Source: Bacteroidota bacterium (lineage in GTDB: Bacteria; Bacteroidota; Bacteroidia; B-17B0; Aurantibacillaceae). Taken from it: a stretch of 64,000 bases of DNA. Every line of letters begins with the position of its first letter. The first letter of the stretch is position 1. Made by a program: the position numbers and the translations under genes. This document shows, one piece after another, positions 57,465 to 60,951 of the stretch. The notes below the pieces were generated by a model. That model searched no databases. It was not told where the DNA came from and worked only from the letters and a program-made list of their open reading frames with translations. The DNA lies in NCBI GenBank assembly GCA_013816895.1, contig JACDDR010000003.1:1-64000 (forward strand), written 5' to 3'.

Positions 57465-58610
57465 CTATAATATCACCGAACGCAACTTATCCCTCAAATT
57501 ATACTGGCTGCTCATTACCTCACCATAAGCACCGGCACTTCTTATCGCTATAATATCACCCCGCTCGGTTTCTATCATTTCTACAGCCTTTCCAAAACAA
57601 TCGCTGCTTTCACAAATAGGGCCAACCACATCGTATTTAAGCGACGTTTTTTTCTCTGAACTGATGTTCTCAATTTTATGATAAGCCTGGTATAATGCAG
57701 GACGTATCAATTCAGTCATCCCTGCATCGAGAATGGCGAAACTGGTATTAATGCCATGCTTCACGTAAAGCACCCGGCTGATAAGGCTGCCGCATTGTCC
57801 AATGATAGCTCTTCCCAGTTCAAAATGTATTTCCTGTTGGGGCTGAAGTTCGAGAAACTGTTTAAACACTTTAAAATAACTTTCAAAATCAACAATGGTG
57901 TTTGTGTCAGGGTCTTTGTAATCGATCCCAAGCCCGCCACCAACGTTAATGTGAGGTAGTAAATAACCCTTTTGAATAAACCACTTATTAATTTCGTTCA
58001 CACGCGAACATAGATTTTTAAAAGGCGTGAGATCGTTTATCTGTGAACCAATATGAAAATGAAGCCCGATAAAATTAATGTGACTTAATTTTTTTAGTTC
58101 TTCAATAACCGTATCAAATTCATAAGGATTAATTCCGAATTTATTTTCTTCAAGTCCCGTAGTAATGTACTTGTGCGTATAGGCGTCCACATTCGGATTG
58201 ATACGCAACGCGATGTTTGCTCTTGTGTTTTTCTTCCTTGCAAGTTCATCAATCACTTTTAACTCCGGCACACTTTCAACATTGAAGCAAAAAATGGAAT
58301 GATCAAGGGCGTAATTAATTTCTTTATCGCTTTTACCAACCCCTGCGAATACGATTTTGTTTCCGGAGTAGCCGGTTTCAACAGCACGTTTAACCTCGTT
58401 ACCGCTTACGCAATCTGCCCCAAGACCAGCTTCCTTAATAAGTTGCAGGAGTTGCGGGTGAGCGTTGGCTTTCAATGCGTAATGGATATGGTATTCCGGC
58501 GGAGCCGCTTTTTTAATGGCAGCAAGCGTTTTATTCAATACGCCCAGATCGTAATAATAAAAAGGAGTTTCTGTTTCCTTAAATGTATTTAATTGCTTTT
58601 GTGAAAACAT
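57465..58610 (-). CDS. lysA: Diaminopimelate decarboxylase
   Basis: TPFYYYDLGVL...HYALKANAHPQLL...GADCVSGNEVKRA...INVGGGLGIDY...GPICESSDCFGK. Confidence 0.96.
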   Translation of the reverse strand: MFSQKQLNTFKETETPFYYYDLGVLNKTLAAIKKAAPPEYHIHYALKANAHPQLLQLIKEAGLGADCVSGNEVKRAVETGYSGNKIVFAGVGKSDKEINYALDHSIFCFNVESVPELKVIDELARKKNTRANIALRINPNVDAYTHKYITTGLEENKFGINPYEFDTVIEELKKLSHINFIGLHFHIGSQINDLTPFKNLCSRVNEINKWFIQKGYLLPHINVGGGLGIDYKDPDTNTIVDFESYFKVFKQFLELQPQQEIHFELGRAIIGQCGSLISRVLYVKHGINTSFAILDAGMTELIRPALYQAYHKIENISSEKKTSLKYDVVGPICESSDCFGKAVEMIETERGDIIAIRSAGAYGEVMSSQYNLRDKLRSVIL

Positions 58611-58636: not shown

Positions 58637-59959
58637 TTAATTATAATTGAACAGGCCTTTATTTAAAGCCATCAACGCTTCTTTTTTAAGATTGCTGTTC
58701 ACAAGCACAGAAATATTGTTAGAGCTACCGCCATATGACACCATGCGTAAGGGTATATCCTTTAAAGCGGCCAGTACTTGGTAGCCATATCCTGCTTTGT
58801 TTTTAGGCAGTTGACCTACGATGCAGATAATGGTTTGATTTTCTTCCACCTCCACCACTGCTATTTCTTTCAATTCCTTTATAATATCTGCAAGGTGCGA
58901 GCTGTTATCAATGGTTAATGAAATGGCCACCTCGCTGGTGGTGATCATGTCGATGGAAGTTTTGTGTCTTTCAAATACTTCGAACACCGCTCTTAAAAAA
59001 CCATGCGCAAGAAGCATTCGCTCACTTTTAATATTTAATGCAGTAATGCCATCTTTGGCGGCAACGGCTTTAATACCTTCTTTAGTATTGAGGTTGGCAA
59101 TAATCGTCCCTTCAGCTTCGGGCTGCAAAGTGTTTTTTAATCTCACCGGTACATTGCGTTTTTGAGCTGGCAGAATACAGGTAGGGTGGAGGATCTTGGC
59201 TCCAAAATACGCGAGTTCGGCCGCTTCGTCGAAACTCAACTGATGAATCGGATGCGTTTTGGTAACAATGCGCGGATCGTTATTATGCATGCCGTCAATG
59301 TCAGTCCATATTTGTACCTCCGGACTCCTGATGGCCGCGCCAATCAAGGAAGCTGTATAGTCGCTTCCGCCGCGTTTAAGGTTGTCAATTTCACCAAAGG
59401 CATTACGGCAAATATAACCCTGGGTGATAAAAAGAATTTGCCCCGGATATTTCTTTAATTCAGCAAGACAGTTCTTTTCGATATAAGTCATGTCAGGTTC
59501 ATCGTTCGCCTCAATGCGCATAAAATTAAGCGCAGGTAGCAGAACCGATTCAACACCAATTTCCTCCAGGTAATAATGAAACATGGCGGTACTTAATAGT
59601 TCCCCCTGGGCAAGGACTGCTTTCTCTTCGTTAGCAGTAAACATATCCATTGTAAAAGCGTTGAGGTAAGAGAAATGGTTATCAATTAACTGTTTCGCTT
59701 TTTCGAGACTTTCGGCTTTTGAATACAGTTCGTTTATTTCTTTAACGTATTTTTCTTTTAGCGCGCCTATTAATGTTTTTGCTTTTACAACATCTTTCGC
59801 GTACAGTGCCGAGCTTATTTCTACCAAGGCATTGGTGGTGCCGCTCATGGCGCTTAACACAACAATCTTTGGCGTTGCATTAACTGTTAGTTTAACAAGA
59901 TCTTTTATTCTCTGGGCCGTTCCAACACTGGTTCCGCCAAACTTTAATACCAATAACAT
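58637..59959 (-). CDS. lysC: Aspartate kinase
   Basis: MLLVLKFGGTSVGTAQRIKDL...LKRGGSDYTASLIGAAI...WTDIDGMHNNDPRIV; start moved from 60031 to 59959. Confidence 0.93.
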   Translation of the reverse strand: MLLVLKFGGTSVGTAQRIKDLVKLTVNATPKIVVLSAMSGTTNALVEISSALYAKDVVKAKTLIGALKEKYVKEINELYSKAESLEKAKQLIDNHFSYLNAFTMDMFTANEEKAVLAQGELLSTAMFHYYLEEIGVESVLLPALNFMRIEANDEPDMTYIEKNCLAELKKYPGQILFITQGYICRNAFGEIDNLKRGGSDYTASLIGAAIRSPEVQIWTDIDGMHNNDPRIVTKTHPIHQLSFDEAAELAYFGAKILHPTCILPAQKRNVPVRLKNTLQPEAEGTIIANLNTKEGIKAVAAKDGITALNIKSERMLLAHGFLRAVFEVFERHKTSIDMITTSEVAISLTIDNSSHLADIIKELKEIAVVEVEENQTIICIVGQLPKNKAGYGYQVLAALKDIPLRMVSYGGSSNNISVLVNSNLKKEALMALNKGLFNYN

Positions 59960-59978
59960 ATTTTTAATGTTTAAATTT

Positions 59979-60053
59979 TTAAAAAAAAAAGAATGGAGTG
60001 AAATTAATAGAGACCGTAGCTCTAAGAACAATGATATAATGGCTTAGTGCCAT
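59979..60053 (-). CDS. Candidate 24-aa leader peptide upstream of lysC-lysA
   Basis: ATG(60053)...TAA(59979): MALSHYIIVLRATVSINFTPFFFF; start codon lies in AATGGC-ACTAA-GCCATT hairpin (60054-60039). Confidence 0.5.
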   Translation of the reverse strand: MALSHYIIVLRATVSINFTPFFFF

Positions 60054-60129
60054 TTATATTTTTTCTTTATCTGAATAATGATCTGCATTAAGCAGGACAA
60101 AGAAAAAAAGTTTTTTAGTATTTCCAAAA

Positions 60130-60951
60130 TTAAGATGTTGGAAGTTGTAAGTAGAAATCGTAATTGGATGGAAAGATGAGTTCAGGCTTTTTATTGAAGA
60201 TTGCGTAAACACTGCTTCCACTTCCGCTCATTGATGAATAAACAGCCCCGGCTTTATAAAGTTGATCTTTTAGTTCTTTTATAGCGGGATATTTTTTCAT
60301 CACTGTTACATCAAAATCGTTGATCACAAGATTTTTCCATTCCGACAAAGGCGCGGTTTCAATGATGTGTTTCAGGTCATGCATTGGTTTTTTGGGTGTG
60401 AGACCATCAAAGGCTTCTTTCGTACTGCTGTGAACAGAAGGAAAAACCACCAAAATATAATATTTACTGAGGTCAACCGTCACCGGAGTAAAATCATTTC
60501 CACGTCCGATGGCATACAAAGGATTTTTAGACAGAAAGAAGGCACAGTCGCTGCCTAGCTGTGAGGCTATGCCGTGTTTTTCTTCATAAGAAAGTTCAAG
60601 GGAAAATTTTTTATCCAGTAACCGGACAAGAAAGGCGGCATCGGAACTTCCACCCCCAATACCAGCACCCATGGGAATAACTTTATGCAGGTGAATATGG
60701 AGGGGCGGAAGCTTTTTCAGCCCGGAAATAATTTTCCAGGTTTTATAGAGAAGGTTATCCTCCGTTTTACCCTGGATTTCTTTTCCTGTAACACTCAAGG
60801 TAAGTGGTTTATCTGACTGTTTTTCAACAACTTCTAATATATCGCACCAGTTTATGGGATAAAAAACGGTGTTAATATTATGAAAGCCATCGGGCCTTTT
60901 TGAAAGCACATTTAGTCCTAAATTTATCTTACAATTCGGGAAGGCTATCAT
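60130..60951 (-). CDS. ispE: 4-(cytidine 5'-diphospho)-2-C-methyl-D-erythritol kinase
   Basis: NCKINLGLNVLSKRPDGFHNI...IPMGAGIGGGSSDAAFLVRLL...SSMSGSGSSVYAIF. Confidence 0.96.
   Translation of the reverse strand: MIAFPNCKINLGLNVLSKRPDGFHNINTVFYPINWCDILEVVEKQSDKPLTLSVTGKEIQGKTEDNLLYKTWKIISGLKKLPPLHIHLHKVIPMGAGIGGGSSDAAFLVRLLDKKFSLELSYEEKHGIASQLGSDCAFFLSKNPLYAIGRGNDFTPVTVDLSKYYILVVFPSVHSSTKEAFDGLTPKKPMHDLKHIIETAPLSEWKNLVINDFDVTVMKKYPAIKELKDQLYKAGAVYSSMSGSGSSVYAIFNKKPELIFPSNYDFYLQLPTS

Follow-up and report, generated by a model that had tools for sequence, protein, structure and literature searches.

A candidate lysine-codon leader peptide upstream of lysC-lysA in a family of Bacteroidota

How are lysC and lysA controlled in the window, the whole stretch of 64,000 nucleotides analysed here? 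In well-studied bacteria, the L-box riboswitch or feedback on the enzyme is credited with the control of lysC by lysine. For this locus, the initial annotation had proposed a leader-peptide attenuator built on a 24-codon ORF between ispE and lysC, with Ile, Val, Leu and Thr as the regulatory codons and with the start codon of the ORF held in a hairpin. Leader-peptide control of lysC-lysA, as a class of mechanism, is well supported by comparison with relatives, but the ORF, the regulatory codons and the role of the hairpin all had to be replaced. The features are listed below. All are on the minus strand, in the order ispE, leader, lysC, lysA, and Pfam confirms the three genes.

60130..60951, minus strand: ispE, the upstream neighbour, dispensable for the leader, since other genes stand there in several leader-keeping relatives
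60098..60129, minus strand: promoter-like box TTTTG-N19-TTTCTTTG from the leader alignment, overlapping the end of ispE's neighbourhood and separated by 9 nt from the leader start codon
60044..60088, minus strand: leader ORF MQIIIQIKKKYKWH, with four Lys codons (AAG AAA AAA at 60067..60059 and AAA at 60055..60053), based on its translation, 39 leaders, enrichment and codon pattern
60038..60054, minus strand: hairpin 1, AAUGGC-ACUAA-GCCAUU, with the leader stop codon (60046..60044) in its loop, based on folding and covariation
60008..60024, minus strand: hairpin 2, (U)AGAGC-UACG-G-u-CUCU(A), with a UACG loop that most of the genus shares, based on covariation
59979..60053, minus strand: ORF MALSHYIIVLRATVSINFTPFFFF of the initial annotation, an out-of-frame by-product outside the system, unconserved in start, length and frame
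59981..59990, minus strand: T10 run, which in the minimum-energy fold may pair at long range, as the 3' strand, with AAAGAAAAAA at 60068..60059 in the Lys codons; the run itself is unconserved
58637..59959, minus strand: lysC, a monofunctional aspartate kinase of 440 aa (AA_kinase 1.3e-37, ACT_9 6.1e-17)
57465..58610, minus strand: lysA, diaminopimelate decarboxylase of 381 aa (Orn_Arg_deC_N 4.2e-58)

Two overlapping frames between ispE and lysC

The elements first described at this locus are present in the sequence. The 24-codon ORF encoding MALSHYIIVLRATVSINFTPFFFF runs from an ATG at 60053 to a TAA at 59979 and ends 19 nt before the lysC ATG (59959), in the T10 run (59990..59981). The perfect 6-bp hairpin AATGGC-ACTAA-GCCATT lies at 60054..60038, and a second stem of AGAG with CTCT lies at about 60024..60008. 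However, this ORF is not the meaningful one, and it was rejected as the leader peptide. Its start ATG is absent in 3 of 24 related leaders (L018, L028 and L066). Reading from the hairpin-1 ATG in those 24 gives products that range from 4 residues to over 50, and the frame shifts between relatives because the loop of hairpin 1 varies in length (3–7 nt). The peptide YIIVLRxTVSINFTPF, which was expected to recur before lysC, is not conserved when the 24 are aligned; a partly shared LRATV arises only because the hairpin-2 nucleotides that encode it (GAGCTACGGTC) are conserved. Nor is the T10 run conserved among them.

Overlapping this ORF in another frame, and starting 35 nt upstream of its ATG, is a conserved Lys-rich ORF (60088..60044) that the initial annotation missed. 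In the window it reads ATG CAG ATC ATT ATT CAG ATA AAG AAA AAA TAT AAA TGG CAC TAA, that is, 14 codons and a stop, with the Lys codons concentrated in the second half. Including the window's, 39 Lys-rich leaders of 14–20 codons were found before lysC in 7 of the 10 genera of the family, and the frame and its spacing are kept among relatives. Lys makes up 25% of the residues after Met in these leaders, vs 7.5% in the window's 42 large ORFs. Most share the core I-K-x-K-(Y/C)-K, preceded by exactly six residues of variable sequence, and the distance from the start to the core is 18 nt in most. Across the 27 distinct cores, 80 of the 81 codons at the three Lys positions are AA(A/G), AAA and AAG both being common at each position, and the codon between the first two is unconstrained. 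The Lys-rich frame is obvious in other genera as well, for example MKNILYIKSKCKRKARPSHI (L082), MTIVISYKRKCKAKKAVN (L066) and MATRSTFPKKKKDAFKKRK (L083).

The association was quantified by a fixed ORF search (ATG or GTG start, 10–24 codons, at least three Lys in six, stop 40–140 nt before the gene). A Lys-cluster ORF appears in 35 of the 62 lysC regions of the family, vs 2.8 expected from dinucleotide shuffles. When nine other residues were put through the same search, clusters appeared in 0–5 of the 62 regions, with Thr in one and Ile in five. The regulatory codons are not Ile, Val, Leu or Thr, as had been thought, but lysine. Before control genes the Lys search found 0 of 22 for dapA, 0 of 15 for hom and 1 of 12 for hisG, and no Thr or Ile leaders before hom or Lys leaders before dapA were found among the loci searched. 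By this comparison, a chance origin of the Lys clusters is untenable, because they recur in seven genera and are all but missing before the control genes, even though the sequences are related and hence non-independent.

Upstream of the leaders there is a recurrent box. In 34 of the 39, a TTTG ends 7–13 nt upstream of the leader start codon, usually as TTTTG-N18/19-TTTCTTTG. It resembles the Bacteroidota -33/-7 promoter consensus (TTTG/TAnnTTTG). If the box is a promoter, then the transcript would start a few nucleotides before the leader ATG.

Two covarying hairpins and their distribution

In about half of the genus, the gap between ispE and lysC is of similar length and contains hairpins of the form AATGGC-loop-GCCATT and GAGAGC-UACG-G(U)CUCUC. 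Both are conserved with compensatory changes, so the stems first noticed in the window are not random. Hairpin 1, however, does not hold the start codon of the leader ORF, as had been supposed, but the stop codon of the real leader; in the window its 5' arm begins within the fourth Lys codon. Over 23 distinct sequences, 94.2% of the cells in the two helices are paired and 7 pairs are altered on both sides. One pair of hairpin 1 shows a GC-to-CG exchange in 8 of the 23, and five of the six pairs of hairpin 2 have changes on both sides. The covariation score was reached by none of 500 shuffles, and sliding the partners abolishes the signal; the alignment was fitted to the covariance model, so the counts lean towards that model. 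The stretch folds with unexceptional energy by itself (z -1.59; minus-strand leader z -1.40). With an E-value cut-off of 5, Rfam gave no match from 59900 to 60130, and neither the lysine riboswitch model (RF00168) nor the T-box model matched in the leader. The case therefore rests on comparison.

A covariance model built from ten leaders was used to search whole genomes. It gave one strong match each in 20 of 40 genomes of the genus and in 24 of 87 in the order. All strong matches lie upstream of lysC, even where ispE is not the upstream gene. Two weak matches (L073 and L077) were set aside as chance matches. Among 395 genomes of the class, there was no convincing match outside the family; the sole one there (G256, L073) is inside a long ORF. 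In other families, one of ten lysC regions contained a Lys-cluster ORF (L109), roughly as often as expected by chance. The relatives compared are mostly metagenome assemblies, and the named records bearing the motif are uncultured Bacteroidota.

A search for LysC across 60 relatives retrieved 30 loci, in which the order ispE-lysC-lysA is widely retained. Roughly half of the genus has no leader, or none that could be recognised, from which it follows that there were repeated losses or replacements, or that the leader was gained late. The most similar LysC (90%) is encoded at L003 (G029), where the gap between ispE and lysC is 6 nt and the leader is gone. There, lysC seems to have been absorbed into the ispE transcript.

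The layout varies in two other genera of the family. In genus g33 (L082, L084–L087, L089 and L093), a longer hairpin without the UACG loop replaces hairpin 2, and the Lys codons lie within an extra hairpin (UUUACA...UGUAAA). In genus g27 (L083 and L090), the leaders are the variants MATRSTFPKKKKDAFKKRK and MLNNNTYLKIKRCASVKRK, and the last Lys/Arg codons and the stop are inside one strong hairpin near lysC, a simpler layout than the window's.

A lysine-sensing attenuator and its competitors

Our main reading, to which we assign a probability of roughly 0.84, is that this would be a lysine-sensing, ribosome-mediated leader-peptide attenuator of lysC-lysA that reads charged Lys-tRNA. Comparison with relatives supports the two hairpins as well as the Lys-rich ORF with its reading frame, placement and association with lysC; it also lets us name the Lys codons as the probable sensor with high confidence. 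That the leader is translated, that ribosomes stall there when Lys-tRNA is uncharged, and that control runs in the direction described next are inferred. The transcript would begin a few nucleotides before the 14-codon ORF. With ample charged Lys-tRNA, the ribosome would reach the stop codon in hairpin 1 and depart; hairpin 2 and the long-range structure around it would then form, and little lysC-lysA would be made. With charged Lys-tRNA scarce, the ribosome would stall on the Lys codons and cover the 5' arm of hairpin 1. It would thereby keep a long-range helix of the leader codons open, leading to an alternative RNA fold and expression of lysC-lysA. Given the usual footprint of a ribosome, one that halts at Lys codon two, three or four would cover that arm, and one that finishes the leader would let the hairpins re-form. 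Against the lysine attenuator stands that the leader is dispensable, since about half of the genomes of the genus show none, including that of the nearest LysC relative, L003.

The output of the Lys leader may be termination, intrinsic or by Rho, or it may be lysC translation. One reading, which we hold tentatively and at somewhat less than even odds, keeps the lysine-sensing ORF and lets it act through Rho-dependent termination or lysC translation, by pairing of the leader codons with the segment 3' of hairpin 2. This would be a lysine switch for the aspartate branch in Bacteroidota that needs no intrinsic terminator. The leader codons would be one strand of a long-range helix enclosing both hairpins, and a stalled ribosome would refold the stretch before lysC, governing either the access of Rho or the translation of lysC in the style of the LEU element discussed below; this fuller picture is offered just as tentatively. 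Leader codons 1–10 pair with the 35 nt after hairpin 2 better in their own sequence than in swapped ones (-7.67 vs -5.95 kcal/mol, p = 0.0004; p = 0.017 without a closely related group), in a permutation that does not remove relatedness. Because the register of the pairing varies between members, we treat it as moderate evidence that such a helix may form. The paired strand also stops short of the lysC start, which speaks against this output. The 50 nt immediately preceding lysC are rich in C and poor in G (C 15.3% and G 5.1%, vs 13.2% and 8.7% in controls), with C exceeding G in 28 of 30 leaders vs 19 of 30 controls. This would allow Rho but does not show Rho, base composition being weak evidence for it.

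That hairpin 2 is instead the intrinsic terminator of a classic attenuator, again with a lysine-sensing ORF, seems to us unlikely. Some members do have a U-rich tail behind hairpin 2, with 6 of 9 nt in L004, L012, L066 and L067, and by eye in L079 and L099. However, many have only 1–3 U in nine, and a conserved intrinsic terminator at this place was rejected because the U-tract is not conserved. The caution in the initial annotation that no U-tract follows directly on a strong stem is thus borne out family-wide. There is no supported antiterminator either. A classic 2:3 pairing, in which the loop of hairpin 1 would bind the 5' arm of hairpin 2, looks good singly in L009, L010 and L017, but over the set the own pairing is no better than the swapped (p = 0.19; 0.44 in a reduced set). 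The U-tract missing from many members and this unsupported pairing also count against the lysine attenuator as a whole, the former in contrast to the his leaders of the same genomes, which show the terminator form of the lineage.

It is improbable that the Lys-rich ORF is an accident and the leader a structured RNA whose ligand is either a protein or, as in a riboswitch for lysine or diaminopimelate, a small molecule. Two covarying hairpins, a conserved UACG loop and model matches found only before lysC would fit such an RNA. Against it, the Lys codons vary in the third position only (the 80 of 81 AAR above), and Rfam gave no match. Furthermore, the leader ORF persists where an unrelated hairpin replaces hairpin 2 (L082 and L084–L087 in g33) and where both hairpins have changed (L083 and L090 in g27), so the peptide outlasts the structure. 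A purely structural reading was entertained early and dropped once the Lys-rich frame was seen to persist in the outgroup with hairpin 2 replaced. A DNA-binding site as the reason for the conservation is very improbable in our view: hairpin 1 does form a palindrome (AATGGC-N-GCCATT), but its loop varies from 3 to 7 nt, both stems contain G-U pairs, stem 2 changes freely in sequence while pairing is maintained, and the sites are downstream of the likely transcription start. A leader peptide MALSHYIIV... sensing Thr, Ile, Val or Leu is hardly credible, for although its ORF exists in the place described, its start, length and frame drift and Thr and Ile clusters are scarce before lysC as given above, and translation of the real ORF would terminate beside its start in the other frame.

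His leaders in the same genomes and other known systems

The positive control came from the same lineage. When the fixed search was run with His before hisG, 9 of 12 loci passed, with His-rich leaders such as MKTTMHLHHHHNLHQVGC... and, in the window's genome (L148), MNFQLHHHYHLLNGRS. These ORFs end about 77–94 nt before hisG (e.g., L148 and L151), and the leaders end in classic terminators, GGCTTACC-loop-GGTAAGCC followed by T6 or T7. His-rich leaders with strong U-tract terminators occur at L148 (G000:C47, upstream of hisG), L147, L151, L154, L155, L156 and L157. Judged by sequence, these are classic his attenuators in Bacteroidia, and hence the lineage uses leader-peptide attenuation. The two systems share lineage and leader-peptide type, and they differ in that the terminator is clear in the his type and absent in the Lys leaders. 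Because of this difference within the same genomes, comparing the two types offers a direct test of how leader-peptide control in Bacteroidota produces its output, and the 39 Lys leaders are a ready set of natural variants.

A Lys leader attenuator was reportedly described for the lysine aminoadipate-pathway cluster of Thermus thermophilus (in J Biol Chem, 2005). The likeness is that Lys codons in a leader ORF control lysine synthesis; the phylum, pathway and gene are different, and the two are likened by description only. The ribosome-mediated attenuators of trp, his, leu, thr, ilv and pheA have a short ORF rich in codons for the end product before the cognate gene, with hairpins around and after its stop (PMC1183508, PMC2659441). 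The Lys leader is like these in its conserved short ORF, cluster of end-product codons and conserved hairpins at and after the stop, and unlike them in that the codon is lysine and there is no conserved U-tract terminator or supported antiterminator. The actinobacterial cys leaders have runs of the cognate codon and no obvious terminator, and in the actinobacterial LEU element the codon run pairs with a stretch before the gene (PMC1262725). Both involve other amino acids and sequences. The cys leaders resemble the Lys leader in lacking an obvious terminator; the LEU pairing covers the Shine-Dalgarno box, whereas that of the Lys leader lies upstream of the lysC start. In Sinorhizobium, the 5' leader of an aspartate-related gene contains SEP5, a short ORF in which Thr and Lys codons cluster and which has been proposed as a Thr/Lys leader (PMC10117765). 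SEP5 differs in its mixed codons, in its gene and in being conserved only in Sinorhizobium. In other bacteria, the lysine (L-box) riboswitch RF00168 controls lysC (PMC2659441, PMC1262725), and RNA-level lysine control has been attributed to it (PMC1262725). Here Rfam gave no match, and sensing is predicted to go through translation and not through lysine binding. A family-wide Lys leader would mean that translation-based lysine sensing has arisen in the aspartate branch as well. The literature searched contained no description of a lysine leader peptide from Bacteroidota, and priority cannot be firmly claimed because most subscription papers fell outside that search.

Two further observations concern the gene content of these genomes. 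The window's genome encodes a second, distant aspartate-kinase-like gene (G000:C134:9346-10476) that is 31% identical to LysC. Within the genus, G001, G003, G008, G009 and G012 have no match to hisG or homoserine dehydrogenase, although several of these assemblies are nearly complete; they are likely amino-acid auxotrophs, judging from gene content, and they have kept lysC-lysA.
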